From: Parapedobacter defluvii
GTDB taxonomy: Bacteria; Bacteroidota; Bacteroidia; Sphingobacteriales; Sphingobacteriaceae
Assembly (NCBI RefSeq): GCF_014642075.1
Contig: NZ_BMIK01000001.1
Location: 186,001-250,000 of the forward strand
DNA: 64,000 nucleotides
Direction: 5' to 3'
This document shows, piece after piece, positions 2,928-19,758 of the stretch. Below the pieces are notes generated by a model that ran no database searches, was not told the DNA's origin, and saw nothing but the letters and a program-made list of their open reading frames with translations. Within the stretch, counting starts at the first letter, position 1; each line of letters begins with the position of its first letter. Made by a program: the position numbers and the translations under genes.

Positions 2928-2970
2928 AATAACTGTTTTCTTTGCATAGCCTACTTACAGACTTGAATAT

Positions 2971-2982
2971 GAATTCGTATTC
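2971..2982. promoter_or_regulatory. Candidate LacI operator O1 (variant site)
   Basis: The 12-mer GAATTCGTATTC lies between lldD and lacI, 131 bp before the lacI ATG. It is the exact reverse complement of the site at 3086-3097 and differs by one base from the perfect palindrome GAATACGTATTC found twice downstream of lacI. An additional half-site GAATA lies immediately upstream at 2965. Four such sites within 1.3 kb around one LacI gene make operator function likely; binding is inferred. Confidence 0.6.
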
Positions 2983-3085
2983 TTTTAATAAAACGCTTTT
3001 TTTTGTATTTAAAAGCTAATATTAAGCCTTTTAGCAACTTTATTTTCTAAAATATTTGCTACTCTGAAGCTTTGTTTTTATTTTT

Positions 3086-3097
3086 GAATACGAATTC
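3086..3097. promoter_or_regulatory. Candidate LacI operator O2 at the lacI start
   Basis: GAATACGAATTC ends 4 bp before the lacI ATG, overlapping the expected leader and ribosome-binding region. It is an inverted copy of the site at 2971-2982. Its position would allow the regulator to repress its own expression. The spacing between the two sites, 115 bp centre to centre (about 11 helical turns), would permit looping; this is inference. Confidence 0.6.
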
Positions 3098-3101
3098 AGA
3101 A

Positions 3102-4121: not shown

Positions 4122-4144
4122 TATAATTTTAAATTTTTCAATTG

Positions 4145-4158
4145 TGAATACGTATTCT
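4145..4158. promoter_or_regulatory. Candidate LacI operator O3 (perfect palindrome)
   Basis: TGAATACGTATTCT contains the perfect 12-bp palindrome GAATACGTATTC at 4146-4157, 24 bp after the lacI stop. An identical 12-mer occurs at 4211-4222, 65 bp away centre to centre. Between them lie a TTTG (4173-4176) and a TATTTTTT (4194-4201), an imperfect match to the Bacteroidota TTTG / TAnnTTTG promoter; with that promoter the second operator would cover the transcription start. Confidence 0.68.
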
Positions 4159-4209
4159 TTGTATATTAACTTTTTGAATTAAAAGACCGCTTTTATTTTT
4201 TTAATACAA

Positions 4210-4223
4210 TGAATACGTATTCA
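4210..4223. promoter_or_regulatory. Candidate LacI operator O4 (perfect palindrome, upstream of susC)
   Basis: TGAATACGTATTCA is a perfect 14-bp palindrome 70 bp before the susC ATG at 4294. It repeats the 12-bp core of the site at 4146. With its paired copy it is the most convincing operator in the window for control of the SusC-led operon by the adjacent LacI protein. Confidence 0.7.
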
Positions 4224-4293: not shown

Positions 4294-7200
4294 ATGAATG
4301 TTTTTCTTAAAATCAAAAGATTAAGGCCAGCAGTGGACTTCTTATCGCTGGGGAAGTCGCTTGCACGCCTTATCCACAGGCGCCGATTACTGACGTTTGC
4401 ATGTTGTTGTGCGGCGGTATTATTTGTAGCTGGTCATGCAAACGGCAGTGGAGGCAAAAACTGGCAAACCCTACAACAGTCTTTTGTAGTAAGGGGCTTG
4501 GTAACCGACAAGGCAGGAAGTCCATTGGCTGATGCTTCCGTTCGGGTTTTACCGTCGTCACGGGAAGTGAAGACAGATATCGAGGGGAAATTTTTGGTGG
4601 AAGCCGATAGTAAACAGGATTCGCTGATTATCAGTTTTGTGGGGTATATAACCTATGCACTTGTTATCGGTGATCAGCGGGATTTCGTTATCCAATTGGA
4701 AATCGATGAAGAACAGCAGAAGCTGGATGAGGTGGTCGTGGTTGGATTCGGGACACAGAAGAAAACAACCATGGTCGGTGCGGTTTCATCTGTTTCGGTC
4801 GGCGAAATCAGGAAGGTTTCTACGCCTTCGCTGAGTAACACAATCGGTGGAAAAATCGCAGGTGTAATTACGAGGCAAGCGTCCGGCGAACCGGGTTATG
4901 ATGCGGCCAGTGTGTATATACGCGGTATTGCCTCAATCAGCGGAGGCAGGAACCCCCTTGTTATCGTAGATGGCGTGGAACGCGAACTCCAAACCTATTG
5001 GAATACCATAAACATTGAAGAAATAGCTGATTTCACTGTATTGAAAGACGCTACTGCAACAGCCGTATACGGAAATAGGGGAGCAAACGGCGTCATTGTG
5101 ATCACGACAAAACGCGGTGCGGTTGGCAAACCGAGGGTGACGTTCCGGTCTGAATTTGCTACGGTATCGCCTTTAAGGGTGCCCAAGGTTATTGATGCAT
5201 ACGAGTATGCTTCGTTACACAACGAGGCGCTGGCCAATATTGGAGAGGCGCCGAGGTATACCTCAGAAGAACTGAACAAGTTTAAAGATGGTTCAGACCC
5301 TTATATCTATCCAAATGTAGATTGGTATGATGTCGTACTGAAAAAAAATACAAAACAGACCATCAATAACCTGGGGGTTTCGGGAGGCACGGAATACGTA
5401 AAATACTATGTGAACCTGGGTTATACACTTCAGGAGGGAATCTACAATGAGAGCTCGCTGAATAACTTCAAAACAAACGCACTCTTAAACAGGTATCAAT
5501 TCAGGTCTAACGTCGATATGCAGCTCGCCCCTGATTTCACGCTGAATCTGGGACTGTCAGGCATTGTATCAGGGACGAATTATCCGGGGGTTGGTACCCA
5601 ATCGGCATTCGCAATCATGGAATTGGTGACTCCACTGATGTACCCGCTGACTAATCCGGATGGTTCTGCGCCCGGTGCCATTGGCGTGGACGGTGCGGTC
5701 AACCCATATACCTTGCTTACCCAAATGGGTTATACCAAGCAATTTTATAATACGCTCGTAAGTAACCTGAATTTTAAATGGGATCTGTCTTCGTGGCTCC
5801 CCGGCTTGGCGGTCAGGGGGTTGGTTGCGTATGACGTAGTTGATATTACACAGAATATCCGGACAAAATCCCCCGAGACGTACCATTATACACGAGACGT
5901 TGCAACAGGGGAAGATATCTATACGCTTGTGAGTTCGGAATCGGCGTTGGGTTATGGCCTGGCAAATGAGAATTATAAGACCCTGTACGGTGATTTGAGC
6001 ATCACCTACGATAAAGCCATAGGCGCCCATAGCCTCTCGGCGCTTCTTTTGGGGAATAAACGAGAATTCACCAATGTCAACGCGGGAAGTTCGATAGCGA
6101 ATCTCCCGGAACGGAGGCAGGGACTCGTCGGCCGACTGACCTATAACTATGATATGCGGTACCTGTTGGAATTGAATGCGGGATACAATGGTTCTGAGAA
6201 TTTCCCCAAAGGCAAGCAGTATGGGCTTTTCCCCTCTGTAGGAGCTGGGTGGGTCGTTTCCAATGAACATTTCTGGAATAAAAGTATCGTAAATATGCTC
6301 AAACTGAGGGCTTCATACGGTTTGGTGGGCAATGACCAGATTGGTGGGGGTAGGTTCCTGTTTTTATCTTCTTACAACAAATCTGCAGCGGGTTACGTCT
6401 ATGGGTTGAACCAAAACAACAGTATAGGTGGGAAGAGCGAAGGGAGTGTAGGAAACCTGAATGTGACCTGGGAAAAAGCTTATAAGTCAAATGTCGGCGC
6501 TGATATTGAACTGTTTAATTCGGCAGTAAGTTTTCAAGGGGATTATTTTTATGAATTGAGAAAAGACCAGTTGTTAAGGCGATCATCGGTGCCTTGGTAT
6601 TCCGGTTATCCTACCGGCGTGATTCCCTACGGAAACATCGGAACTACATCGAATTGGGGGGTAGAAGGTAGTCTACAGGTAAGGAAAACCACGGGTTCTG
6701 GCTTTTATTACTCGTTTCTTGGAAATTTCACGTATACCAAAAATAAGGTCATCGAAAACGATGTCCCGTACATTTATGAACACCAAAATCCGAGGGGTCA
6801 CGCCATTGGGGCTTCGTCAGGCTATATCGCCACCGGTTTCTTCCGTGACGAAGCAGATATTGCCAACAGTCCATCTCAGTCCATTTTCGGAACGTACGGA
6901 CCCGGAGACATCAAATATCAGGACCTCAATGAAAATGGCCGGATAGATCTTGAGGACATCACCTTTTTTGGTGAATATGGACCTGAACCGTTGGTGATGT
7001 ATGGATTTGGGACCACCTTGGCATGGAAGGGTTTTGATGCGTCTGTCTTTTTTACCGGGGCTGCCAATCGTGATTTCTTTTACGGTGCTGGATGGCCGAT
7101 GCGCCCATTCTTTGCAGGAGTTGGCAAGTATAATGTTTTACGCGAATATTACGACAACAGGTGGGTGCCTGGGGAAAACAATGCAGATGCCATTTATCCG

Positions 7201-7473
7201 GCAATCAGGGCGGCGAGCGAGAACAATTACATCTCTTCAAGCCTATGGCGTAAAAATGGAAATTACCTGCGCATAAAAAATGCGGAAGTAGGATACACCT
7301 TTGATTCCCATATCACTTCAAGGGTGGGTGTTTCTAACCTGAGGTTGTTTGTCCAGGGAACCAACCTGCATACGTGGGACCATATCAAAGCGATTGATCC
7401 TGAATCCAATTACGGTACGGGTGCACACCCAATTTCCAGGAACATTAATTTTGGTATTAACGTCATTTTTTAA
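4294..7473 (+). CDS. SusC/RagA-like TonB-dependent outer-membrane receptor (region B)
   Basis: This is a 1059-residue TonB-dependent transporter of the SusC family that imports oligosaccharides across the outer membrane with its SusD partner. The order is: an extended basic N-terminus (RRR near residue 30) and hydrophobic signal LTFACCCAAVLFVAGHANG; a carboxypeptidase-regulatory-like domain (~65-145, VVRGLVTDKAGSPLADASVR); the family motif DEVVVVGFGTQKKTTMVGAV; the plug with ATAVYGNRGANGVIVITTKR; then a long beta-barrel ending in INFGINVIF. There is no STN domain, so it is not obviously coupled to an anti-sigma factor, consistent with control by the LacI next door. The SusD gene follows by 20 bp. 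The signal peptide is unusually far from the first Met; the internal start options are less good. Confidence 0.95.
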   Translation: MNVFLKIKRLRPAVDFLSLGKSLARLIHRRRLLTFACCCAAVLFVAGHANGSGGKNWQTLQQSFVVRGLVTDKAGSPLADASVRVLPSSREVKTDIEGKFLVEADSKQDSLIISFVGYITYALVIGDQRDFVIQLEIDEEQQKLDEVVVVGFGTQKKTTMVGAVSSVSVGEIRKVSTPSLSNTIGGKIAGVITRQASGEPGYDAASVYIRGIASISGGRNPLVIVDGVERELQTYWNTINIEEIADFTVLKDATATAVYGNRGANGVIVITTKRGAVGKPRVTFRSEFATVSPLRVPKVIDAYEYASLHNEALANIGEAPRYTSEELNKFKDGSDPYIYPNVDWYDVVLKKNTKQTINNLGVSGGTEYVKYYVNLGYTLQEGIYNESSLNNFKTNALLNRYQFRSNVDMQLAPDFTLNLGLSGIVSGTNYPGVGTQSAFAIMELVTPLMYPLTNPDGSAPGAIGVDGAVNPYTLLTQMGYTKQFYNTLVSNLNFKWDLSSWLPGLAVRGLVAYDVVDITQNIRTKSPETYHYTRDVATGEDIYTLVSSESALGYGLANENYKTLYGDLSITYDKAIGAHSLSALLLGNKREFTNVNAGSSIANLPERRQGLVGRLTYNYDMRYLLELNAGYNGSENFPKGKQYGLFPSVGAGWVVSNEHFWNKSIVNMLKLRASYGLVGNDQIGGGRFLFLSSYNKSAAGYVYGLNQNNSIGGKSEGSVGNLNVTWEKAYKSNVGADIELFNSAVSFQGDYFYELRKDQLLRRSSVPWYSGYPTGVIPYGNIGTTSNWGVEGSLQVRKTTGSGFYYSFLGNFTYTKNKVIENDVPYIYEHQNPRGHAIGASSGYIATGFFRDEADIANSPSQSIFGTYGPGDIKYQDLNENGRIDLEDITFFGEYGPEPLVMYGFGTTLAWKGFDASVFFTGAANRDFFYGAGWPMRPFFAGVGKYNVLREYYDNRWVPGENNADAIYPAIRAASENNYISSSLWRKNGNYLRIKNAEVGYTFDSHITSRVGVSNLRLFVQGTNLHTWDHIKAIDPESNYGTGAHPISRNINFGINVIF

Positions 7474-7493
7474 CTATTTATTAGCTAAGGATT

Positions 7494-9308
7494 ATGAAAA
7501 GATCTAACTATAAAGCCATAGTCATGATGACGATGCTTTTCGTCATGCAATCCTGCGTGAAGGATTTCCTGGACAAGACGCCAGATGAAGACCTGACTTC
7601 CGAACAGGTGTTTACGAACCCCGGTTTTACCAGGGAATTTTTGGCAAATATCTATTCGTATTTGCCAAATGAAGCCATGATGGTGGACAACACGGGTGTA
7701 ATTAATGCGTTCAACGGTGCTGCCGATGAAATGGAAATTACGCACGAACCCTTTTTCTCGAACCTGATGAATGCGGGAAATTGGAGCTCGAATACCTACA
7801 CCTCCAGCGGTTGGAGTCCGTACTATCAAGCAATCCGGAACTGCAATATTTTCCTCGAAAATATTCACCTGTTGAAACCTAATGAGTTTTTTCCCGAAGC
7901 GACAATCAACCAGTGGGTTGGTGAGGTGTATTTTTTGAGGGCGTTCTATTATTTTTTACTGGTGCGTATTTATGGTCCGGTTCCGGTTTTTGACCGCACC
8001 GTCGGACTTAACGAGGACTTCAAGTTGTTCAAGCGGGTACCAATTGACCAGTGCGTCCAGTTCATCGTCGCAGACTGCAATCGGGCAGCGGAAATACTGC
8101 CGCCGCGGATTACCCAGCAAAACGAATTGGGAAGGCCATCTAAAGTTTCTGCACTGGCACTCAAGGGCAGGACGCTGCTTTATATGGCCAGCCCATTTTG
8201 GAATGGCAATCCGGATTATGCGAGTTTCACAGACCGCGATGGTGTCCGATTGTTTCCGGATTTTTCGAGTGAGCGTTGGCAAGAAGCAGCATCGGCAGCC
8301 AAGGAGTGTATCGATATCGCTGAAGCGGCAGGCCATCGGCTCCACCGATCTGCATCAAATAACCCGATTGCAAATTATCAAGAGACTTTCTATGTGAACT
8401 TTAACGACGAGGTGTTTTTTACCAGAAATGATCCGTCCTATATCCACTTGGATACCTATAGTGAACCCTGGGGAATTCCGGGAGCCTTTTTTCCGCACCA
8501 GGGCGTAACACAAGATCAGGTTGACGCCTATCACATGGCCAATGGTGAAGTGCCAATTTTGGGGTATAACCCAGATAAAACGCCTATTATCAATCCAGCA
8601 TCGGGATATTCCGAAAACGGAAACACCGCGAAAGAGACACCGTTTTATGTAGCCGGAACCCGTGATATGTATGTAGGTAGGGAACCGAGGTTTTACGCCA
8701 GTATTAACTTCACCGGGGCTAAATATAAAATGGTTACCGATGGCCTTAAGTTTTGGTTCGGAGGGCCGAATGGGCGCCAACCGGGTCAGTCGGCGTTTAC
8801 AAGAACCGGATATTTGATGAAAAAATTGACCCACCCCGATTACGATATGGCGACACGTAGCGGTACTGCTCGGACGTGGATATTTTTCAGACTGGGGGAA
8901 CAGTATCTCAATTACGCGGAGGCACTGAATGAGGTTTCCGGTCCGGTAGCGGATGTTTATAAATATGTAAATCTGATCAGGGAACGTTCGGGTATCCCCG
9001 GTCTGCCAGCTGGACTGACCAAAGAGCAAATGCGAGCGCGTATCCGGCATGAACGTAGAATTGAGCTGGCTTTCGAAACGCATAGGTATTTTGATTGTAT
9101 CCGCTGGAAAATCGCGGAACAGGTGAATGAAGGACCGATATATGGCCTGGATATCAGCACACCGGGATATACCATGGATAGTGATGATTTTTATCGGCGA
9201 ACATTGGTTGAATCAAGGGTATTTGAAAAGAAACACAATCTTTGGCCAATACCATTCATTGAAACCGAAAAGAATATCAACCTGGTTCAGAATCCAGGTT
9301 GGGATTAA
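7494..9308 (+). CDS. SusD/RagB-like surface glycan-binding lipoprotein (region B)
   Basis: This is a 604-residue lipoprotein that caps the adjacent SusC and binds glycan at the cell surface. The N-terminus MKRSNYKAIVMMTMLFVMQSC gives a lipobox with Cys at residue ~18, followed by VKDFLDKTPDEDLTSEQVF, the characteristic start of SusD proteins. TPR-like helices (EVYFLRAFYYFLLVRIYGPV) and the C-terminal RHERRIELAFETHRYFDCIR, with the ending INLVQNPGWD, are diagnostic. It lies 20 bp after susC, and the symporter ribosome site begins just after its stop. Ligand cannot be deduced from sequence. Confidence 0.95.
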   Translation: MKRSNYKAIVMMTMLFVMQSCVKDFLDKTPDEDLTSEQVFTNPGFTREFLANIYSYLPNEAMMVDNTGVINAFNGAADEMEITHEPFFSNLMNAGNWSSNTYTSSGWSPYYQAIRNCNIFLENIHLLKPNEFFPEATINQWVGEVYFLRAFYYFLLVRIYGPVPVFDRTVGLNEDFKLFKRVPIDQCVQFIVADCNRAAEILPPRITQQNELGRPSKVSALALKGRTLLYMASPFWNGNPDYASFTDRDGVRLFPDFSSERWQEAASAAKECIDIAEAAGHRLHRSASNNPIANYQETFYVNFNDEVFFTRNDPSYIHLDTYSEPWGIPGAFFPHQGVTQDQVDAYHMANGEVPILGYNPDKTPIINPASGYSENGNTAKETPFYVAGTRDMYVGREPRFYASINFTGAKYKMVTDGLKFWFGGPNGRQPGQSAFTRTGYLMKKLTHPDYDMATRSGTARTWIFFRLGEQYLNYAEALNEVSGPVADVYKYVNLIRERSGIPGLPAGLTKEQMRARIRHERRIELAFETHRYFDCIRWKIAEQVNEGPIYGLDISTPGYTMDSDDFYRRTLVESRVFEKKHNLWPIPFIETEKNINLVQNPGWD

Positions 9309-9323
9309 TTGGGAGGGCAGCAC

Positions 9324-11129
9324 ATGGCTTGGAGCCAACTTGACATCTGGATCGTCATCGCGTACTTCATTTTCATGATAGGGCTTTCGCTGTGGCACCG
9401 GAAATTTGCCTCAGGGGGTATGGAAAATTTCTTTTTGGGTGGGCGTAAGGTACCAGGTTGGCTAAATGGGGTTTCTTACACCGCAGCGTTGGTGAGCCCC
9501 GATGCGGCTACGGGATATGGGGGACTAGCGGTGGTTACCGGTGCATTTATCTCCTGGTGGTACCTTAGCAGGTTTGGGTTAGCTTTATTCTTGGCTGGGG
9601 TACTGTTTGCATTTTTTTGGAGAAAACTTAACCTATTTACCTCGCTGGAATTTTACGACCTGCGGTTCAAACCCCGCACGGCCCAGGTTATGCGTTTCTG
9701 GATCGCCATCCGGACATCGTTTATTGCCATGCCCGCTTGGACAGGGATTACCCTACTTGCCGCGTGTAAGATCATGGAGCCGGCGTTCGGGTTCAGTAAA
9801 ATGGAAACGCTCGCACTGATTGTTCCGGTATCATTTGCGTTTGTATTTTTCTCGGGCTACAAAGGAGTGGTGATCTCAAACCTGATCCAGATGAGCATTT
9901 TTATTGTTGGTGCGTTGGTGTTGGCATTCTTCACCTTAGAACATTTTGGAGGACCTGAGCATATGGCAGCTACGATCCAAAACACCTTTGGAATGACAAA
10001 TCCGGAAATCATGCAGGTTATTCCTCCCATAGACCATGAGGTATTTCCGATGATGGCGGCTATGGCTTGGATGGTTGGGCAAAGTATTGGCTACGGAGGG
10101 GACGCAGCTCCTATGGGAGGGGCTATGGAAGGTCAGCGGATATTGTCTACACGAAGCCCGAAAGAAGCCCTTACGATGTATGTGGTGACTGCGGTGACTA
10201 TGTTCATCTTGCTTTTACTGGTAACGTTGCCCAGCGTGTCAGCCGCCGTGATTTGGCCGGAACTGAGAGAGCCGGGGGCGGATCGGGAACAAGTCTATGG
10301 AATGCTGATGAAGGAGATGCTGCCAGCAGGTGCAATGGGTATTTTGGTGGCGGCTATGTTGGCCGCCACCATGTCTACGGTGGCCGATAACCTGAATTTC
10401 GGCGCTCAGGTGCTGGTGAGTGATGTATACAGGAAATGGTTGGTGGGTAATAGAGGGGAGAAACACTACCTGGCAATGGGTAAAGTGGCGATGGGATTGA
10501 TTCTCAGTCTATCCTTGATGGTCGTGTTCAACGTAGATTTTATCGTCGATGTTGCCATTTTCATGCTTCAGCTCAGCGCAGCTGAATTACCGGCTAATTG
10601 GGCGCAATGGTGGTGGTGGCGGTTTAACGGAAAGGCCCGCATTGCCGCTTCGTTTGGCGGCGCACTGTTTTTTTGCCTGGTTGTTTTGGTGCCCAAGATG
10701 CTGGTGCATTTCAATGTTCCCTGGGGAGCGGAGTTAGTGTTGCCCTGGTGGTGGCAGACGCTTCTGGTCATGGGTGCGACTACGCTTTTATGGATAATTG
10801 TCGCTTGTTTTACGAAGCCCGACCCGGACGGGTTGTTACGAAATTTCCATGAAAAAGCTAAACCATTGGGATATTGGGGTGCATATGCGCATCGCAACAC
10901 GCATGTGCGCAAATCGGCCGATACAAGACCCATCGTCAATGGAATCGTGCTGGCGATTATCGGTTTTGTCGCCACCTGCCTGTTGGTAATCGGACTGACG
11001 GATTTTTGGTTTGCAAACTATTCTCGGGGTGGCAGCGAACTTTTAGCCTCGGCTGTATTGTTTTGGATCTTCCGAAAAGGAATAACAAAATACCTCCATT
11101 TTCTTGAGAACAGGGATAGAAATTTTTAA
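9324..11129 (+). CDS. Sodium:solute symporter (SSS family)
   Basis: This is a ~601-residue inner-membrane transporter of the SSS family that moves a sugar or organic acid inward with sodium. Roughly 13 hydrophobic segments are visible. Family features include the N-terminal helix IVIAYFIFMIGLSLWHRKF, FFLGGRKVPGWLNGVSY and the PAGAMGILVAAMLAATMSTV segment corresponding to the conserved TM8 region. A GGAGGG ribosome site at 9312-9317 is well placed for the ATG at 9324, so I prefer it over the TTG at 9309. It follows SusD by 15 bp and precedes the ceramidase-like gene by 15 bp, so it probably carries the monomer released in the periplasm by the enzymes of this block. SSS transporters for sialic acid and other amino sugars exist, but no specificity motif can be read here. 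Confidence 0.9.
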   Translation: MAWSQLDIWIVIAYFIFMIGLSLWHRKFASGGMENFFLGGRKVPGWLNGVSYTAALVSPDAATGYGGLAVVTGAFISWWYLSRFGLALFLAGVLFAFFWRKLNLFTSLEFYDLRFKPRTAQVMRFWIAIRTSFIAMPAWTGITLLAACKIMEPAFGFSKMETLALIVPVSFAFVFFSGYKGVVISNLIQMSIFIVGALVLAFFTLEHFGGPEHMAATIQNTFGMTNPEIMQVIPPIDHEVFPMMAAMAWMVGQSIGYGGDAAPMGGAMEGQRILSTRSPKEALTMYVVTAVTMFILLLLVTLPSVSAAVIWPELREPGADREQVYGMLMKEMLPAGAMGILVAAMLAATMSTVADNLNFGAQVLVSDVYRKWLVGNRGEKHYLAMGKVAMGLILSLSLMVVFNVDFIVDVAIFMLQLSAAELPANWAQWWWWRFNGKARIAASFGGALFFCLVVLVPKMLVHFNVPWGAELVLPWWWQTLLVMGATTLLWIIVACFTKPDPDGLLRNFHEKAKPLGYWGAYAHRNTHVRKSADTRPIVNGIVLAIIGFVATCLLVIGLTDFWFANYSRGGSELLASAVLFWIFRKGITKYLHFLENRDRNF

Positions 11130-11144
11130 ACATAAATTAATTAG

Positions 11145-12383
11145 ATGAATCAAACCGTGTTAAAAGTAGGGACAGGTGTATCGGATATTACCCCTGCTTT
11201 GGAAGTTGGCTTTCTTACTTCATCTGTAAGGGGGACATATGCTCCGTTTAAATCCGTAAGGTCACCGTTGAAGGCAAGAGCTATTGCCCTGGAAGTTGGT
11301 GCGCATGTTGTTGTATTGGTGTCCTTGGATTTACTGGGGCTCAGTGAAGATGCCGTTTATGGGTGGGAACGGTTTAAAGCCGCTTCATGCGGTACGGTTC
11401 CGGTTGATAACGTCATTATTACTTGCACCCATACTCATTCAGCCCCCGAATCGCTCGCATTGTCCGATCTGTATACCGCCGATTCCTACAAGCAATGGCT
11501 TGGTCAGCTGGAAGGCGCCATACGGAAGACCATTTCCCATGCCTTAAACACGTTAAAACCCGTATCGACAGTAGAAATATCCTCATCGGAATTGGATGGG
11601 TTTTCGCTGCTGCGCCGCATCGCTTTACCGCAGGGCATTGTTATGTCCGATACCATGCAACCCGTCGCCGCTGATCTATTCGCGAGGAGACCGATAGATC
11701 GCAGAGTCCGGGTATTACGGTTCTTATCAACGGATGGAAATTCTCTTGCATCCATTGTTCACTTCGTCTGCCATCCCGTACACGAAATGCTTTTCCCCAG
11801 TGTATCCCCCGATTTTCCGGGAGAATTATGTGCCATACTGGAATCGGAACCTACAAACGGTTTCCCGATGTTTTTAAACGGTGCGGCGGGCAACATCAAT
11901 CCACCTACCGTGTCGTGGGGCGTGGAGTATACCCTGAAGCATGCGGAAGCCCTCGCAAAAAAAATAGTGGAGCAAACCGATGCGGAGCGTGAAACGGTGA
12001 CGGATCTAATGCAGATGAGCCAATCCATGGATTTTGATATCCGGCAGGAGGCCGACCTACCCATTTCGGATGCCCGGGCTGTCATTCGGCTCGTTCGGAT
12101 TGGTCGGGTGGCCATGGTATTTATTCCCGGTGAGCCATTCGTGGAAACTGCCCTGCGGATTGAGCAACATTCCCCATTTGAGCATACCATCGTGGTGGGT
12201 TATTCGGAATGTTCGGTCGGCTATATCCCAACTATCCATGCATTTGAAGAGGGCGGATACGAAGTCGGTCCTGGAAAATGGTCGTATTTGGAAGCCGATG
12301 CAGAGGAGCGGATTTATCGGGAAGCAGTCAGTATGCTTAATCGCTTATATGAAAATGAAATAAACTTGGCAAACAGTATTTAA
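11145..12383 (+). CDS. Neutral-ceramidase-like metalloamidase, no signal peptide
   Basis: This 412-residue protein resembles the N-terminal catalytic domain of neutral/alkaline non-lysosomal ceramidases (zinc amidases). The opening VGTGVSDITPALEVGF matches the family start. Apparent zinc and catalytic positions are retained: TCTHTHSAPE (His-X-His), FVCHPVHE (His) with SPDFPGELCA, FIPGEPFVETALRIEQ (Glu) and VVGYSECSVGYIPT (Tyr). Unlike secreted ceramidases it lacks both a signal peptide and the C-terminal immunoglobulin-like domain and is therefore predicted cytoplasmic. It sits directly after the SSS symporter, suggesting that it hydrolyses an imported small amide rather than membrane ceramide. 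A second, secreted homologue lies at 17615-19570. The actual substrate is unknown; ceramidase should be read as a fold name only. Confidence 0.78.
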   Translation: MNQTVLKVGTGVSDITPALEVGFLTSSVRGTYAPFKSVRSPLKARAIALEVGAHVVVLVSLDLLGLSEDAVYGWERFKAASCGTVPVDNVIITCTHTHSAPESLALSDLYTADSYKQWLGQLEGAIRKTISHALNTLKPVSTVEISSSELDGFSLLRRIALPQGIVMSDTMQPVAADLFARRPIDRRVRVLRFLSTDGNSLASIVHFVCHPVHEMLFPSVSPDFPGELCAILESEPTNGFPMFLNGAAGNINPPTVSWGVEYTLKHAEALAKKIVEQTDAERETVTDLMQMSQSMDFDIRQEADLPISDARAVIRLVRIGRVAMVFIPGEPFVETALRIEQHSPFEHTIVVGYSECSVGYIPTIHAFEEGGYEVGPGKWSYLEADAEERIYREAVSMLNRLYENEINLANSI

Positions 12384-12408
12384 ATATCATCATTATTGAT
12401 TTCTCATT

Positions 12409-14538
12409 ATGGTACGAGTAAAATTAGTTGCATGTTGGCTGATGCTGGTTTCATTCAGCGTGGTGCAGGCTCAGGAGCTGTTTTTTTATGGGGAGACCCA
12501 AAACGACCTCTATAAGCTTTTGATTAAGGAAGGGTATAAGGTACGGCATTTTAATGATCCCGAAAAAGCGGTACGAGCGGCCGGAAAAAATGATCCCGTA
12601 TTCCTCATTGCAAAAAATTACCCTGAGCTGGATCCGCAGATGCACGTGTCGGCCGATCTGCTGAAAACGATCAAGCGGAAAAAACTGCGCGCATATATCG
12701 AATATCCCAGTGTATACGAAGGATTGGATATTCAGGGGCCGCCGATTGAAACCCGCTTAGAACGGGGTGTGGTCACAACAGATGGGCTTGCCCCGGTATT
12801 GCCCCGTATGGGGTTGCTGGGACTTCACAACAGTTATGTCCTTCCGGTCGAAATACCGGATCCACTCATCGTGCTCGCAAAAGTGGTTGGCTATGACAAG
12901 GCGGAATATGGCCTCACCGATACCAAGGTATATCCAGCACTGTTTAAGAAAGACGGAATATTGATCAGTACCACGGGCCTGACCAATTTCCAAAAAGGAC
13001 GTTACGGACCTGCACGGTCCGTCAAGGCGGTGTGGGAGTATATCCTGTCTGACAGGTTTGGCGGGCCAGCAGTCCGGCTGGGCGATTGGCCCCAGGATGT
13101 AAAACCGGCATTTCCCAAGGACGGAGCGCTGCCGAATGATGCCCGCCTCGAAAGTATTAAAAAAGGTGCGGAGTGGTATAAAAAGGGAAACTTCTTTCTG
13201 CATGCGTCGTGGAAAGACAACTGGCTGAAATACCAAGGTGATGGTACCATGCCGGTGGGGCCTCCTTTATCGCCCAACTTAGCCCAGGGTGATGGCAGCA
13301 TGGGTATTCTGGAAGGGCATACATCTACAATCAACTACGACGGAAGCCAGCAGTACCGTTATTGGATGCGGGCAGATGTTCAGGGGGAAGCGAGCATGGC
13401 ACTCGCTGCGGCGGGACAGCTTTTGGGCAATCAAGAATTCAAAAACAAATCGACGAACCTGCTTGATTTCGTTTTTCACACGTCCAATCTGCGGGCAGCT
13501 GAAAAAGATAATCCGGCTAGTCCATCGTATGGCATGATCGGTTGGGCTGTTACGCACCCGGGCAGCTTTTATGCCGATGACAATGCCCGGACCCTGCTGG
13601 GAGCGATTGCTGCTTCGTCGTATTTGGAAACCGATAAATGGGATAAGGAAATCGCTGAAGGAATCCTGGCAAATTTTAGGCTTACAGGCAAAAAAGGCTT
13701 CCAAGGAGAGCGGTTGGAAGAAGTCGCCATCCTGCAGGAAGGGTGGAAGGCCTATGCAGATAGGGACTTTGTTCACATTTCGCCGCATTTTGAATCGTGG
13801 ATGTGGGCATGTTATCTGTGGCTTTACGACAAAACAGGGTATAAGCCCCTGTTTGAAAAGACCAAAGAAGCAATCCGTATCACCATGGAAGCCTATCCCC
13901 AGGATTGGTTATGGGGAAGCAGTATGCAGATGCAACGCGCTCGGATGATCTTGCCCCTGGCCTGGTTGGTCCGGGTCGAAGATACCCAGGAGCATCGGCA
14001 ATGGTTGGACCAGCTGGTGACGGAAATCACGAAATATCAGGACGAATGTGGGGCTATCCGGGAGGAAATAGGCGGTGACAAAGGGCGTAAGTTCAGGGCG
14101 TTGAATAGTAATTCCGATTACGGACTGGACGAAGGATCCCTGATTTTCAGGAATGGCGAAACGGCTTCTTGCCTCTTATATACCTGCAATTTTGCCCTGT
14201 TCGGTCTCGCTGAAGCTGCCGCGGCCACCCAGGATGAAAAATACATAAATGCCGTTAATAAGCTTTCCGATTTTATGACCCGCGTACAGGTCACGAGTAG
14301 TGTACATCCCGATTTGGATGGAGCCTGGTTCAGGGGTTTTGATTATACCCGGTGGGATTATTGGGCGTCAAATTCGGATATCGGCTGGGGTACTTGGTGT
14401 ACGCTTACCGGATGGATACAGAGTTGGATTGTGACCACGCAGATTCAACTCGAAACAGGAAAGAGTTTTTGGGACCTAACCAAAACATCTGCCATAGCAG
14501 GCGATGCAGAAAAGGCTGTTGAAAACATGTTGGATTAG
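12409..14538 (+). CDS. Secreted two-domain protein: class-I-amidotransferase-like N-terminus plus alpha/alpha-barrel
   Basis: This 709-residue protein starts with a signal peptide (residues 1-21, CWLMLVSFSVVQAQ). Residues ~22-225 read like an alternating alpha/beta domain (LFFYGETQNDLYKLLIKEG; later GPARSVKAVWEYILSDRFG) reminiscent of ThuA or glutamine-amidotransferase-like folds used non-catalytically. Residues ~240-700 are helix-rich with repeated aromatic segments (SFYADDNARTLLGAIAA, HFESWMWACYLWLYDKTGY, DYTRWDYWASNSDIGWGTW), typical of six-hairpin glycosidases or related uronyl hydrolases. Conserved acids around YADDNAR and the ISPHFESW region could be catalytic, but I cannot assign a GH family. 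It lies 25 bp after the ceramidase-like gene and 12 bp before murQ, so it is part of the operon and probably acts on the glycan in the periplasm. Confidence 0.6.
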   Translation: MVRVKLVACWLMLVSFSVVQAQELFFYGETQNDLYKLLIKEGYKVRHFNDPEKAVRAAGKNDPVFLIAKNYPELDPQMHVSADLLKTIKRKKLRAYIEYPSVYEGLDIQGPPIETRLERGVVTTDGLAPVLPRMGLLGLHNSYVLPVEIPDPLIVLAKVVGYDKAEYGLTDTKVYPALFKKDGILISTTGLTNFQKGRYGPARSVKAVWEYILSDRFGGPAVRLGDWPQDVKPAFPKDGALPNDARLESIKKGAEWYKKGNFFLHASWKDNWLKYQGDGTMPVGPPLSPNLAQGDGSMGILEGHTSTINYDGSQQYRYWMRADVQGEASMALAAAGQLLGNQEFKNKSTNLLDFVFHTSNLRAAEKDNPASPSYGMIGWAVTHPGSFYADDNARTLLGAIAASSYLETDKWDKEIAEGILANFRLTGKKGFQGERLEEVAILQEGWKAYADRDFVHISPHFESWMWACYLWLYDKTGYKPLFEKTKEAIRITMEAYPQDWLWGSSMQMQRARMILPLAWLVRVEDTQEHRQWLDQLVTEITKYQDECGAIREEIGGDKGRKFRALNSNSDYGLDEGSLIFRNGETASCLLYTCNFALFGLAEAAAATQDEKYINAVNKLSDFMTRVQVTSSVHPDLDGAWFRGFDYTRWDYWASNSDIGWGTWCTLTGWIQSWIVTTQIQLETGKSFWDLTKTSAIAGDAEKAVENMLD

Positions 14539-14550
14539 TAAAAAATCAGT

Positions 14551-15357
14551 ATGGAAAAAATTACGGAACGTCCGTCGCCATATAGGCATCTGGAGAAAAA
14601 GCAGATAGCAGAAATCACAAGGGATATCAATACAGAAGACAAGACTGTCGCTCAAGCCATAGAAAAGGCCTTGCCGCAGATTAATACACTGATCGGAGCC
14701 ATCGTTGAAAAGATCAAAAAAGGAGGAAGGCTGTTTTATGTAGGGGCAGGTAGCGGTGGAAGACTATCGGTACTCGACGTTATCGAATTGCCTACGACAT
14801 ATGGCATTGAGAAAGGTGTGTTCAATGCAGTGCTTGCCGGAGGCATTGACCGGTTAGCCGATGCGCTCGAAGAAAAAGAAGATGAAGTATACGCGGGTTG
14901 GGAAGCGTTGGTTGGGTATCGGTTGTCGGATAAAGATATGGTGGTAGGCATATCGGCAAGTGGCACGACTCCCTTTGTTCTGGGAGCATTGGGACAGTGC
15001 AATCAGCATGGAATTACAACAGGATGCATCGTGAGTAACCTAGGGTCGCCGATAGCAGAGATCGTGGAATTTCCGGTTGAGGTCATTACAGGCAACGAAT
15101 TTATCACCGGAAGCACACGGATGAAGTGCGGTACTGCACAAAAAATGATATTTGACATGATAAGTACCACAGCCATGATCCAATTAGGTCGTGTCATAGA
15201 CAATCGTATGGTAAACGTAAAATTAATTAACGATAAAATCATCGATCGTGCAGTGAGAATGGTAATGGAACTCGGCGGCATCGCAGTGTATGGAGATGCA
15301 AAGGCATTGTTGATCCAGCACGGAAGTGTCAAAAAAGTATTGGATCATCTGAATTAA
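14551..15357 (+). CDS. murQ: N-acetylmuramic acid 6-phosphate etherase (MurQ-like)
   Basis: This is a 268-residue SIS-domain lyase. MurQ cleaves the D-lactyl ether of MurNAc-6-phosphate to give GlcNAc-6-phosphate and D-lactate. Diagnostic elements are the SIS motif GRLFYVGAGSGGRLSVLD, then the catalytic-glutamate region VIELPTTYGI, VVGISASGTTPFVLGAL and the MurQ signature ITGSTRMKCGTAQKMIFDMI. It is about 30 residues shorter than typical ~300-residue MurQ, ending soon after IAVYGDAKALLIQHGSVKKV, and IELPTTYG replaces the usual AECPPTFG, so it belongs to a divergent branch. Placement inside a SusC/SusD operon with an AGE epimerase, away from cell-wall recycling genes, suggests a catabolic role on an imported lactyl-ether or related amino sugar phosphate. 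No amino-sugar kinase is visible in the window. Confidence 0.85.
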   Translation: MEKITERPSPYRHLEKKQIAEITRDINTEDKTVAQAIEKALPQINTLIGAIVEKIKKGGRLFYVGAGSGGRLSVLDVIELPTTYGIEKGVFNAVLAGGIDRLADALEEKEDEVYAGWEALVGYRLSDKDMVVGISASGTTPFVLGALGQCNQHGITTGCIVSNLGSPIAEIVEFPVEVITGNEFITGSTRMKCGTAQKMIFDMISTTAMIQLGRVIDNRMVNVKLINDKIIDRAVRMVMELGGIAVYGDAKALLIQHGSVKKVLDHLN

Positions 15358-15381
15358 ATCAATTCGTACGCATTTATAGTA

Positions 15382-16578
15382 ATGATGAAAGACCTTTCAA
15401 CGTATAAAAATTTTTACCTGGACCAGTTGCTTGGCGATACCCTGCCTTTTTGGTTCCCCCGTTCAATAGACCACCAATATGGAGGGTATCTGCTGATGAG
15501 GGATCGCGATGGTTCCTTAATAGACGATGATAAAGCGGTATGGATACAGGGACGGTTTTGCTGGCTGCTGGCTACCCTATATAATACGGTGGAGAAAAAA
15601 GAAGAATGGTTACTGGGGGCAAAAACAGGTATTGAGTTTCTTGAAAAATTTGGTTTTGACACAGATGGGCAGATGTTTTTCCATCTTACGCGGGATGGTA
15701 AGCCAATCAGGAAGCGAAGGTATTTCTTTTCGGAAACGTTTGCAGTCATCGGGTATGCAGCTTACGCCAAAGCTAGCGGTGACGCCCAAATAGCGGATAA
15801 GGCGCGTCAGCTTTTTGGCAAGTGCATCGAATATGCAGAACAGCCCGGCTTGCTGACACCTAAATTTACGGACGTACGGCCAGCTAAAGGGATCGGTGTG
15901 CCTATGATACTGATCAATACAGCCCAGCAGCTTCGTGATACCATAGGAGATCCGAGATGTGACACATACATTATGAAGTGGATCGAAGAAATCGAGCGGG
16001 ACTTCGTTAAAGACGATTTGCGTTGTGTGATGGAACAAGTGGCGCCCGATGGAAGCATCATTGACCACATTGACGGTCGCACCCATCTGCCCGGGCATGC
16101 GATAGAAGCAGCATGGTTTATTTTGAACCAGGCACAGCATCTTGATAACGATGAAAGGCTGATAGCGCTCGGAACCAAAATCATTGATTACATATGGGAA
16201 CGTGCTTGGGATACGGACTACGGTGGCATCTATTATTTCAGGGATGTATTCGGCAAGCCCGTACAGGAATATTACCATGATATGAAGTTCTGGTGGCCGC
16301 ATAATGAACTGATTATCGCGGCGCTGTTGGCCTATTTGCTTACCAGTAACGAGAAGTATGCAAAAATACACGAACAGGTACATAATTATGCGTATGGCCA
16401 TTTCCATGATAAAGAATATGGCGAATGGTTTGGTTACCTGCATCGCGATGGCACACTGGCGCAGACCGCGAAGGGGAATTTGTTCAAGGGGCCATTCCAT
16501 TTGCCGAGACAGGAATGGTTCTGCTGGTGGATGATTGATCGTTTTGAAAAAAATAAGTTATTAAGTCAGGAAGTATAA
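15382..16578 (+). CDS. N-acylglucosamine 2-epimerase (AGE) family enzyme
   Basis: This 398-residue cytoplasmic (alpha/alpha)6-barrel enzyme resembles the AGE family, whose members epimerise GlcNAc/ManNAc, cellobiose or mannose at C2. Conserved elements include DHQYGGYLLMRDRDGS, GRFCWLLATLYN, the His-containing HLPGHAIEAAWFI and KFWWPHNELIIAAL, and the C-terminal GNLFKGPFHLPRQEW that carries the second catalytic histidine. Length is normal. The ATG at 15382 is followed directly by a second ATG; either could be used. Its TAA overlaps the ATG of the next gene by one base (TAATG), implying translational coupling. Next to murQ, a GlcNAc/ManNAc-type activity is plausible, but family members with other substrates are not distinguishable by eye. 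Confidence 0.85.
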   Translation: MMKDLSTYKNFYLDQLLGDTLPFWFPRSIDHQYGGYLLMRDRDGSLIDDDKAVWIQGRFCWLLATLYNTVEKKEEWLLGAKTGIEFLEKFGFDTDGQMFFHLTRDGKPIRKRRYFFSETFAVIGYAAYAKASGDAQIADKARQLFGKCIEYAEQPGLLTPKFTDVRPAKGIGVPMILINTAQQLRDTIGDPRCDTYIMKWIEEIERDFVKDDLRCVMEQVAPDGSIIDHIDGRTHLPGHAIEAAWFILNQAQHLDNDERLIALGTKIIDYIWERAWDTDYGGIYYFRDVFGKPVQEYYHDMKFWWPHNELIIAALLAYLLTSNEKYAKIHEQVHNYAYGHFHDKEYGEWFGYLHRDGTLAQTAKGNLFKGPFHLPRQEWFCWWMIDRFEKNKLLSQEV

Positions 16579-17561
16579 TGAACAAGATAAAATCGCAGTT
16601 AGCTGATCACATCCTAGCTTTTTTGGCATGGGGTGTCGTATCAGTATTGATAAGTTCCCCGGCTATGGGGCAAAAAGGCAGGGATAAGAATCCCGCTGAG
16701 ATTATAAAACTGGGAACCATCGATTGCGATCTGGTGGAAACAACCCCCGTTGTATTTAATAAGAAAGTCTACCGTTTTGAATATGTTAGGGAGCGGTATT
16801 GGGATAACCATACAGGCGATTCTTATTTCAGATTTGTATCGCACAAAACACGGAAACCTACTGCATCGTTTGCTGCCGGATTTCATCTTGGCAGTGCATA
16901 CGTACACCGGAATAACGTGATCGTAACAGGAGTAGACGATTGGGGCGCAGACAAAATCCACATTTTCACATCCAACAATTTGGATGCATGGGAAGAATGG
17001 GTTGCTTTTGAATTGCCAGGTTACCAGATTTTCAATACGTCACTCATACACGATGGAAAACGATATGTGCTGATGTTTGAAATCGGTGGGCCACCTGCCG
17101 GTGTCGGTTTTACGGCACGGTTTGCCACCTCGCCAGACCTAAAGCATTGGGATATACTGCCCGAAATCCATAACTATGCCATGGATCGGTATACGGCTCC
17201 CCATTGTTTGCGTTATCTTGATGGATATTATTATAATTTCTATTTGGAAATGTATAATGGATTCGAGATGAGGGTGGTCCGTTCGCAGGATTTTATTCAC
17301 TGGGAAGCCAGCCCGTTGAACCCGGTATTGCGTTCGTCACCCGAAGACAAGAAGATTTTCAATACGGCTTTGGACATGCAATTCCGTCCGAAGATTGCCG
17401 AAGCCGACAACACGAATAATTCGGATCTTGATTTCTGTGAGTATCGCGGAAAGCTAATCATCAATTACTCATGGGGTAACCAAATGGGAGCCGAGTTTCT
17501 TGCAGAAGCATATTACAACGGCACAACCGAGCAATTTCTTAGATCATGGTTTCCGGAATAG
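16578..17561 (+). CDS. Secreted five-bladed beta-propeller protein, GH43/GH130-like
   Basis: This 327-residue protein has an N-terminal hydrophobic signal (ILAFLAWGVVSVLISSPAMG) and then a repeated short-strand pattern typical of five-bladed propeller glycosidases: VETTPVVFNKKVYRFEYVR, FNTSLIHDGKRYVLMFEI, TAPHCLRYLDGYYYNFYLEM and WEASPLNPVL. Several aspartates/glutamates near blade starts could form the catalytic set, but I cannot match GH32, GH43 or GH130 unambiguously. It begins on the last base of the epimerase stop codon, so the two genes are tightly coupled. Its secreted location suggests it trims the glycan before SSS-mediated uptake. An annotation of glycoside-hydrolase-like protein is the most that can be supported. 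Confidence 0.6.
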   Translation: MNKIKSQLADHILAFLAWGVVSVLISSPAMGQKGRDKNPAEIIKLGTIDCDLVETTPVVFNKKVYRFEYVRERYWDNHTGDSYFRFVSHKTRKPTASFAAGFHLGSAYVHRNNVIVTGVDDWGADKIHIFTSNNLDAWEEWVAFELPGYQIFNTSLIHDGKRYVLMFEIGGPPAGVGFTARFATSPDLKHWDILPEIHNYAMDRYTAPHCLRYLDGYYYNFYLEMYNGFEMRVVRSQDFIHWEASPLNPVLRSSPEDKKIFNTALDMQFRPKIAEADNTNNSDLDFCEYRGKLIINYSWGNQMGAEFLAEAYYNGTTEQFLRSWFPE

Positions 17562-17614
17562 CCGAATCGCCTATACAGTAAATCCAGGGGATCAGCACTG
17601 AAAAAATACCAAAA

Positions 17615-19570
17615 ATGTGTAAGAACGGAAAATTCAGATTCAAAGTCACGGGTTGCCTGTGGTTGCTAGGGCTGGTGGGAGTTCACTCAGTTTCATTCGC
17701 TCAATATGAGTACCGGGTGGGAAAAGGCGAATCATCCATCGAGCCGGGTGAAAATATCCTTTCCTTGGCGCTTGCAGGCTATGGTATACCAAGAGGGGGG
17801 CGGTTCTCCCTTGAGTGGAAGGAGCGAGGTAGGTTGGGTGCTGTTTCTGATGCCGCCATGATTTCAGGCAAGTTGTATACCCTGGTGGGAGGTAATGTGG
17901 GTGAGGTTGACTTGGACAAATTTGAAAGCGGAGCTTTTGTGCTCCGCCAAGATAGGTATATCAAGCTGCTGACCGCAGGAAACAACCGGCTGTTTGCGTT
18001 GGATGCACGCAATGAATTACTAGAAGCTGCCGCGCCGCGCGGGGGTAACATCCGTTGGAGGCGGGTGGGCAGTGTGCAGATGGCGCCGCAGGCCTTGTCT
18101 TACCATGACGGCCGATTTGTACTGCTGGATACGGCCGGAGTGTTATGGACGGCTGAAGACCGTGATGGATCCCTGGTATGGCATCCACTGGTAACATGCA
18201 GTGGGGCCATAGATGTGATGTCCGACCAACGTCAACTGTATGCACTTACTGACAAGCAGGAGATACTTCGCTATATGCCGGATACTGATTGGGTACGGAT
18301 TGCGATATCGAACGGCATCACATATCGCCAGGACATTCAGCTCCTGATAGCATCAGGAAGCGGATATTGGGCGTTGGATCATGCAGGTGTATTGTACCAG
18401 GCGCGTCATAGCAGCGTGAACCAACTCACCGTAGGTGCGTTGCTTGTACAGCAGGACAAACAGCGGGTTGCCATATTGGGAGCAGATGTCTGCGGGTTTG
18501 ATGCCGACTTTGTGAACGCCGTCAAACGAGATATCCAACAGACATTCGGGATATCACCCGCTGCGGTGATGGTGAATGCATCGCACACCCATTTTGCACC
18601 CGTTACGCAGCGATGGCTAACGTGGGGGCCGCATTGCCAAAAGCCAGACAGCACTTACCTGTATACCGTAGTAAAAGCCGGCATCATGGATGCCCTCCGG
18701 CAAGCTGAACGGTCTCTGCAACCGGCAAATCTATATGTGGGGAGATCAGCGGCTCAAATCGGCCGTAATCGAAGCCTACCGGAAGCTGATCCCCCTTATG
18801 ACCAAGCCCTTGACGTGATCCGTGTAGATTACGAACATCTTGATCAAGACGATATTGTGTTTCTGGCGGGATGCCATCCGGTTTCGGATAACTCGGGCAA
18901 AGAAGACATCACAATCAGTCCGAATTATCCCGGCGTTGCCCGTGAATTGCTGCTGCACCATTCGCAGGTCCGATCGGCCATGTTTCTGCAGGGGTGCGGC
19001 GGTGATATCAATCCCATTGACGTCGATCACCGGGTTACGGCAAAAAAAGTCGCGGCAACCGTAACCGGGCTGCTTGACCAAGGCACCATGCAGCAAATCG
19101 AGGGGAGCATTACCTTTTATCTAGATACCGTGCAGTTCGACAGCCGGCCTTGGCCTGAAGATAAAATCAAGGAGTTCCGGGCAGCCAATGAAGGATCGGA
19201 AGGCAATGTGGGCGCGGAAAAAAATGTCCGCTGGGCAGATCTGATGCTACAAAACATTCAGAAAGGCGAAATGCCGAAGACAATGCCGGTGTTTATCCAA
19301 ACGTTCAACATCGGTAATTGGAAATTAGTAGGAATTTCGCGCGAAACCACCACCGAATACAGCTTGGGTGTTAAGGCAATTTGGCCTGATAAAATGGTTT
19401 CGGTAGCTGGTTATTGTAATGACATATCCAGCTACCTGCCCACTAATAGGCACATCAGAGCCGGTACGTATGAAGGTCATGATTCATTCTTTTGGTATGG
19501 ACAACCAAATGTATTCCCTGAGAACGTATACGAAACAATCGTTGAAGCCATCAGGTCTAAAAACCGGTAA
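17615..19570 (+). CDS. Secreted neutral-ceramidase-like amidase with inserted beta-propeller
   Basis: This 651-residue protein has a signal peptide (residues ~1-30, LWLLGLVGVHSVSFAQ). Residues 33-60 (VGKGESSIEPGENILSLALA) match the very start of a ceramidase-like domain. Residues ~65-270 instead show repeated propeller-like blades (SGKLYTLVGGNVGEVDLDKF, NNRLFALDARNELLEAA, DGRFVLLDTAGVLWTAEDRD, SGYWALDHAGVLYQA). The ceramidase-like sequence then resumes with RVAILGADVCGFD, NASHTHFAPVTQRW (His-X-His), LAGCHPVSDNSG (His), ISPNYPGVARELL, VGISRETTTEYSLGVK (Glu) and VAGYCNDISSYLPT (Tyr). Compared with the single-domain homologue at 11145-12383 the propeller is nested inside the amidase domain. It is the last gene of the co-directional region B block; a hairpin follows at 19581-19617. 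Confidence 0.72.
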   Translation: MCKNGKFRFKVTGCLWLLGLVGVHSVSFAQYEYRVGKGESSIEPGENILSLALAGYGIPRGGRFSLEWKERGRLGAVSDAAMISGKLYTLVGGNVGEVDLDKFESGAFVLRQDRYIKLLTAGNNRLFALDARNELLEAAAPRGGNIRWRRVGSVQMAPQALSYHDGRFVLLDTAGVLWTAEDRDGSLVWHPLVTCSGAIDVMSDQRQLYALTDKQEILRYMPDTDWVRIAISNGITYRQDIQLLIASGSGYWALDHAGVLYQARHSSVNQLTVGALLVQQDKQRVAILGADVCGFDADFVNAVKRDIQQTFGISPAAVMVNASHTHFAPVTQRWLTWGPHCQKPDSTYLYTVVKAGIMDALRQAERSLQPANLYVGRSAAQIGRNRSLPEADPPYDQALDVIRVDYEHLDQDDIVFLAGCHPVSDNSGKEDITISPNYPGVARELLLHHSQVRSAMFLQGCGGDINPIDVDHRVTAKKVAATVTGLLDQGTMQQIEGSITFYLDTVQFDSRPWPEDKIKEFRAANEGSEGNVGAEKNVRWADLMLQNIQKGEMPKTMPVFIQTFNIGNWKLVGISRETTTEYSLGVKAIWPDKMVSVAGYCNDISSYLPTNRHIRAGTYEGHDSFFWYGQPNVFPENVYETIVEAIRSKNR

Positions 19571-19617: not shown

Positions 19618-19726
19618 TCTTAGTCCCCTTCAATCGGTATATATGGTTGATTATTAATGTGTTGATAGGTGTTTTGAAAGAATATACTGACAGGACAGTG
19701 CAGTATGGCTACTCGAATCTTATTGT

Positions 19727-19734
19727 TATATTTG
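19727..19734 (+). promoter_or_regulatory. Possible -7 promoter element for the GH78 gene
   Basis: TATATTTG fits the Bacteroidota TAnnTTTG -7 consensus. Transcription would begin near 19741, upstream of the ATG at 19759 but downstream of the ATG at 19705, which supports the shorter GH78 start. No convincing TTTG lies 18-20 bases upstream, so confidence is modest. Confidence 0.4.
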
Positions 19735-19758
19735 ACCAATTGTATAGACCTTTCGCGT

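Follow-up and report, generated by a model that had tools for sequence, protein, structure and literature searches.

A candidate polysaccharide-utilisation operon of Parapedobacter defluvii combining ceramidase-fold proteins with a variant MurQ, likely directed at an N-acetylhexosamine-containing glycan

The stretch of DNA analysed here (the window, 64,000 nucleotides) covers C1:186001-250000 of the 5.8-Mb draft genome of Parapedobacter defluvii. At positions 4294-19570, it contains nine open reading frames, all in one direction and separated by intergenic gaps of -1 to 53 bp. The earlier note had described nine co-directional genes with short gaps and SusC/SusD in front, and the open reading frames confirm this arrangement. 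In the same way, Pfam and NCBIfam searches recovered the families it had named, namely SusC/SusD, an SSS symporter, two ceramidase-like proteins, a MurQ-like protein and an N-acylglucosamine 2-epimerase (AGE). The valuable part of the locus is the MurQ-like protein, a variant referred to below as MurQ*, together with its ceramidase-fold partner CerS. The features are as follows; signal peptides and lipoprotein character were judged by eye.

2970-2983, + strand: operator-like palindrome 5' of lacI, 2 mismatches (palindrome scan)
3072-4121, + strand: LacI-family regulator (PF00356, PF13377); likely start ATG 3102; 68% identity to the LacI of L076, a locus from the same genus
3085-3098, + strand: operator-like palindrome just 5' of the likely lacI start (palindrome scan, sequence)
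4145-4158, + strand: operator-like palindrome before susC, 1 mismatch (palindrome scan)
4210-4223, + strand: operator-like palindrome before susC, exact (palindrome scan)
4294-7473, + strand: SusC, TonB-dependent outer-membrane transporter (TIGR04056, 909 bits)
7494-9308, + strand: SusD, surface lipoprotein by appearance (PF07980, 176 bits, 1e-51)
9309-11129, + strand: SSS-family sodium:solute symporter (PF00474, 106 bits, 2e-30); likely start ATG 9324
11145-12383, + strand: CerC, cytosolic ceramidase-fold hydrolase of 412 amino acids (aa) (PF04734, 32.7 bits); motif Ser replaced by Asn (GNINP)
12409-14538, + strand: secreted 709-aa protein without Pfam family; N-terminal alpha/beta part and (alpha/alpha)6 barrel (residues about 239-691)
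14551-15357, + strand: MurQ*, MurQ-like SIS-domain protein of a variant subclade; signature from residue 65, Glu79 and Glu110 kept
15382-16578, + strand: AGE (PF07221, 157 bits); 73% identity to Pedobacter heparinus AGE (8BRY)
16578-17561, + strand: secreted 327-aa protein without Pfam or NCBIfam match; signal peptide
17615-19570, + strand: CerS, secreted ceramidase-fold hydrolase (PF04734, 35.6 bits); motif Ser replaced by Asn (GDINP)

The adjacent SusC/SusD pair, the degradative genes and the regulator together identify a polysaccharide utilisation locus (PUL), in support of the catabolic block of this type proposed earlier. The sequence TGAATACGTATTCA, allowing up to 2 mismatches, occurs at 4 sites in 64 kb compared with 0.32 expected, and all of them lie within 2970-4223, around lacI and 5' of susC. 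The palindromic operators noticed earlier before susC are therefore real sites, through which the LacI-family regulator would presumably act. Two related palindromes are situated in the corresponding lacI-susC gap of L076. Scans for sigma-70 promoters and terminators gave no signal above that of shuffled sequence. In a different genus of the family, the 12-base palindrome GAATACGTATTC is present as well, in front of a DegT gene (L096:17740). Rhamnose-type genes are found on both flanks of the operon: an FGGY kinase and LldD lie upstream of lacI (383-2927), and a GH78 alpha-L-rhamnosidase starts 134 bp after CerS (19705-22386). The upstream genes were considered as part of the operon, which was rejected as they were judged to form a separate one.

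MurQ*, which lacks a signal peptide, exceeds the cut-off of the NF003915 subfamily (301.4 vs 168 bits) and falls below that of the TIGR00274 equivalog (248.8 vs 302 bits). In the tree, it belongs to a separate clade of 28 rows with a support of 98/99. The canonical signature GAGTSGRLG..DASECPPT is altered in 28/28 members of this clade, reading GAGSGGRLS..D(V/A/I/C/T/K)(I/V)E(L/M/I)P(T/N)T with one case of GGRLA, whereas among the remaining 30 MurQ rows, 26 show the TS/SEC-PP pattern and 2 more deviate only at the Cys. The window copy reads GAGSGGRLSVLDVIELPTT and thus differs from the canonical signature; in addition, LNMLST has become FDMIST in most members of the clade. At the same time, Glu79 and Glu110 align with the catalytic glutamates and are conserved across the clade. 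We take them to match E83 and E114, the acid/base glutamates of E. coli MurQ, whose roles were reportedly established by Hadi in 2008. The host genome also encodes a canonical MurQ at C1:49479. Since the signature of MurQ* is changed while the host keeps the canonical enzyme, it appears likely from these comparisons that MurQ* acts on a different leaving group or sugar. Consequently, the lactyl-ether removal that had been assigned to the window protein is not supported as stated: although both catalytic Glu residues stay, MurQ* is part of a distinct subclade in which residues near a catalytic Glu are altered, and the canonical MurQ in the same genome further weakens this assignment.

Co-occurrence of the variant with CerS was surveyed in 251 genomes of the order. 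A MurQ-family match was present in 251/251 genomes, and 22 of them carry an additional MurQ* copy that is 63-100% identical to that of the window, compared with roughly 50% for the usual copy. Using a profile built mostly from MurQ-linked members and a limit of E <= 1e-100, CerS was detected in 17/251 genomes, and 17/17 of these are among the 22 with MurQ* (Fisher p 2.6e-22, a significance inflated by genome relatedness). Furthermore, 19/19 CerS genes are situated 14-2291 bp from a MurQ* copy. Co-occurrence of MurQ and ceramidase-like genes had been named beforehand in the earlier note as the observation on which the proposal depended, and it held. The linkage extends to a different family, where MurQ*, DegT, CerS, a BadF kinase and an MFS gene stand side by side (L159). 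The usual position of MurQ* beside ceramidase-fold enzymes suggests sugar chemistry of a cell-wall-like type that is as yet unassigned.

More distant CerS relatives in other families (E about 1e-45) do not adjoin MurQ. Three loci outside the order, L166 (G531) and L167 and L168 (G581), contain such relatives without MurQ; DegT adjoins the relative in L166, and several ceramidase-fold genes share one locus in L167. A DegT-type sugar aminotransferase adjoins MurQ* in L080 (8422-9813), L083, L085, L096 and L101, and lies between MurQ* and CerS in L159. Enzymes of this type are usually biosynthetic. The DegT-containing MurQ*/CerS loci look catabolic and are mostly without GH20 or GH89 glycosidases.

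Both ceramidase-fold proteins of the window give partial matches to PF04734 near its gathering cut-off of 32.1 bits. Against the neutral-ceramidase equivalog NF041649, CerC reaches 44.2 of the required 1200 bits, while CerS has no match. In profile alignments of the two proteins with 2ZWS (Pseudomonas aeruginosa) and 4WGK (human), the HTH and HPV motifs, a Glu, a Tyr, the Tyr 12 residues later and an Arg line up. The corresponding residues are H96/H98, R157, H210, E330, Y360 and Y372 in CerC, and H324/H326, R386, H421, E577, Y607 and Y619 in CerS; the His, Glu and Tyr positions of this fold presumably bind zinc. CerC is without a signal peptide and CerS possesses one, so the earlier description of one cytoplasmic and one secreted protein with neutral-ceramidase site motifs is confirmed at the level of aligned active-site residues. 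The model of CerC (pLDDT 73) had significant fold matches to neutral ceramidases only (2ZWS, E 8e-20). Despite this likeness in fold and active-site residues, identity in the structural match is only 16-19%, CerC is much shorter than the known enzymes, and CerS carries a beta-propeller-like insert (about residues 65-265) whose length varies among relatives. In human neutral ceramidase, His196, Arg257, Tyr579 and Tyr591 are critical, and Ser354 of the NLGDVSPN amidase motif is said to position Arg257 (PMC6952831). This Ser is Asn in both CerC (GNINP) and CerS (GDINP), as matched by motif rather than by computed alignment. Because of this replacement, ceramide is an unlikely substrate, while metal-dependent amide hydrolysis by CerC and CerS is plausible from the retained residues. 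In L106 (C12:93000-112500) of the same genome, a further PF04734-like gene is flanked by two SusC-type gene pairs, so several PULs of this genome may employ ceramidase-fold proteins.

The 709-aa protein has a signal peptide and no Pfam or NCBIfam family, and a sequence search of its family against the PDB returned no match. Its barrel resembles GH76, GH88 and AGE-type (alpha/alpha)6 barrels in fold (Z up to 25) but differs from them by its extra N-terminal domain. Naming its activity from the fold was rejected because the fold matches are too general. The family has an invariant D390-D391-N392, which was considered against the catalytic Asp pair of GH76 and related (alpha/alpha)6 glycosidases, and was found in 44 Bacteroidota genome loci, directly after CerC in 10/44 and with AGE within five genes in 11/44; the order SSS-CerC-barrel is kept in other genera. 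In Parabacteroides, a ROK-type kinase/MurQ fusion, i.e., kinase and etherase in one protein, directly follows the barrel gene (L047:12081-13817 and L048:12096-13814). Three Bacteroidales loci (L072, L073, L074) hold the barrel gene beside GH20 and GH89; they also contain a GDPD-DUF4855 protein, and L072 further contains NAGPA (phosphodiester glycosidase). This gene set suggests a GlcNAc-phosphodiester glycan (GlcNAc, N-acetylglucosamine).

Among the remaining proteins, AGE has no signal peptide and shares its 73% identity with 8BRY over 384 residues, i.e., at full length. Compared with the Pedobacter enzyme, it sits inside a SusCD operon and is below the NF052547 equivalog cut-off (354 vs 600 bits). 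Relatives of the SSS symporter at 66-71% identity occur in L036, L038-L041, L043, L056, L058 and L076, and its PDB relatives are distant only. The 327-aa protein has a relative in 1 other genome among the 251 (32% identity).

The substrate class is best indicated by the loci of relatives. Near MurQ*-CerS, these contain DeoR, SusCD, a BT_3987-like/tachylectin protein, GH43, GH20, GH89, a BadF kinase and an MFS protein that scores 377 bits against the NagP model (cut-off 625), and some further add GH84 with NagA, and a NagB-PIG-L protein. The host genome encodes NagA and NagB over their cut-offs and has four BadF kinases outside the window operon, one of them (MurK-family) on contig 5, in a sister locus with MurQ* and CerS. 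The kinase of the sister loci matches both Tannerella MurNAc (N-acetylmuramic acid) kinases, with 205 and 183 bits. As relatives add GH20, GH89, GH84, the NagP-like transporter, the MurK-family kinase, NagA and NagB, a glycan containing N-acetylhexosamine (HexNAc) is the likely substrate class as judged from gene content, and the N-acyl amino sugar proposed in the earlier note gains support from the same genes. In 9/9 kinases linked to these loci, D-S-L occupies the place of the lactyl-pocket S-P-L of MurK. This pocket was rejected as a specificity test, since kinases of these genomes that are not linked to the loci have D-S-L as well.

Combined, with moderate confidence, we interpret the locus as a LacI-controlled polysaccharide-utilisation operon for a HexNAc-containing glycan or glycoconjugate; the block is a real operon for nutrient uptake in a soil-type member of the Bacteroidota, probably for sugars of the GlcNAc kind. 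From the gene content, we infer the following order of steps. SusC/SusD would bind and import oligomers. These would be trimmed on the outside by the barrel protein, by the 327-aa protein and by CerS, which would hydrolyse amide bonds in a metal-dependent manner. Across the inner membrane, the SSS symporter would carry the modified HexNAc into the cytosol, where CerC would take off a further acyl group and AGE would interconvert GlcNAc and ManNAc (N-acetylmannosamine). After 6-phosphorylation by a kinase encoded elsewhere (one of the MurK family lies on contig 5), MurQ* would remove the C3 substituent via a MurQ-type C2-C3 elimination/hydration, and the resulting GlcNAc-6-phosphate would enter the NagA/NagB route. 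Several observations weigh against this interpretation. Pfam and NCBIfam searches found no kinase among the nine genes, and GH20 and GH89, which with the kinase carry much of the HexNAc argument, are likewise missing from the operon. The barrel match is generic: identity is about 10%, and numerous unrelated families score Z 23-25. The MurQ* of the window clusters, weakly supported, with copies lacking a CerS neighbour, and L076 has LacI-SusCD-SSS-CerC-barrel-AGE and no MurQ, 327-aa gene or CerS.

Salvage of peptidoglycan or MurNAc, with an ordinary MurNAc-6-phosphate etherase and a symporter that imports MurNAc much like MurT of Tannerella murTKQ, is a doubtful but still credible alternative. 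It agrees with the MurQ family membership, the two retained catalytic Glu residues, the MurK/K1058-family kinase of the sister loci and a published murein-related PUL with deoR, SusCD, sodium co-transporter and murQ (PMC10199937). However, the variant signature throughout the clade, set against the canonical-type pattern of most other MurQ rows, and the separate canonical MurQ of the genome are at odds with it. Moreover, canonical MurQ lies beside its own BadF kinase in three other genomes (L160, L162, L163), no murein amidase, muramidase or carboxypeptidase is found among the nine genes, and the linked kinases deviate from MurK, although other kinases of these genomes do so as well. If CerC and CerS were instead true ceramidases, the operon would degrade sphingolipids or N-acyl lipids, with the sugar genes handling a glycosylceramide head group. 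Fold and conserved active-site residues fit this, but it is very improbable: both proteins barely exceed the PF04734 cut-off and are far below, or without a match to, the neutral-ceramidase equivalog, their amidase-motif Ser is Asn, CerC is cytosolic and merely 412 aa long, and the examined neighbourhoods contain no lipase, glucosylceramidase or sphingosine gene. Model scores and gene neighbourhood led us to reject it.

The nine genes could also represent two unrelated modules, SSS-CerC-barrel-AGE and MurQ*-CerS, joined by recombination without a joint pathway. The exact set is indeed not conserved as a whole, and the operon is a mosaic: L076 holds the first module alone and has a different SusC/SusD pair (28 and 26% identity), window MurQ and CerS differ in their closest relatives, and the 327-aa gene is almost restricted to this genome. 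Conservation of the gene combination put forward earlier is supported for MurQ and the ceramidase-like genes, and not for the whole set. In contrast, both modules occur together again in Paradesertivirga, where L043 contains SSS, CerC, barrel and MurQ*, and L037 contains AGE, barrel, GH20 and CerS; because the same set is held there, split over two loci, joint function is favoured over chance assembly. Each module also independently indicates HexNAc (AGE; the ROK-MurQ fusion in Parabacteroides; GH20/GH89 in Bacteroidales), and the short gaps, single strand and one clear regulatory region speak against such an assembly, which we consider improbable. A bolder extension of the preferred HexNAc pathway, speculative and rather unlikely, is that MurQ* is a new catabolic enzyme that would strip a C3 substituent other than D-lactate from HexNAc-6-phosphate, e.g., a 3-amino group after cleavage of a 3-N-acyl amide by a ceramidase-fold enzyme. 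Together with CerS/CerC and the DegT-type aminotransferase, MurQ* would then make up a so far undescribed pathway for amino sugars of bacterial surface glycans, either diamino sugars or ones modified otherwise at C3.

The theme itself is not new, since published examples include Tannerella murTKQ, consisting of SSS, kinase and MurQ (PMC5790795), as well as a murein-related PUL in which MurQ adjoins SusC/D and a sodium co-transporter (PMC10199937). With Tannerella forsythia murTKQ (PMC5790795, PMC10465942), the locus shares a sodium-symporter-superfamily importer, a MurQ-family protein, a kinase of the same family (here in sister loci) and amino-sugar salvage. It differs by the missing kinase, the variant MurQ signature, the D-S-L of the linked kinases, and the added SusCD, ceramidase-fold enzymes and AGE. 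The PUL of the Urechidicola symbiont (PMC10199937) unites SusCD pairs, DeoR, a sodium co-transporter, murQ, nagB and an MFS permease, and DeoR, MFS and NagB recur in relatives of the window locus; AmpD, DacA, an L-Ala-D/L-Glu epimerase and GH171 are its own features, while a ceramidase-fold enzyme and AGE are unreported there. Searches of the literature on MurQ/MurNAc PULs, on PF04734/ceramidase and on ceramidase with polysaccharide utilisation returned no description of a MurQ/ceramidase-fold pairing. The possible undescribed system suggested earlier is thus not new in its theme; in the literature searched, neither this MurQ subclade nor its ceramidase-fold partner appears to have been described.

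At present, an NCBIfam subfamily model labels MurQ* a MurNAc-6-phosphate etherase, despite the changes throughout the loop with one catalytic Glu and its genomic tie to ceramidase-fold enzymes. If confirmed, our interpretation would set right the transfer of annotations among genomes of Sphingobacteriales and their relatives, and it would point to a ceramidase-fold family that serves glycan use rather than lipids. It would also provide a short, testable set of enzymes for a new amino-sugar pathway, consisting of MurQ*, CerS, CerC and the barrel protein.

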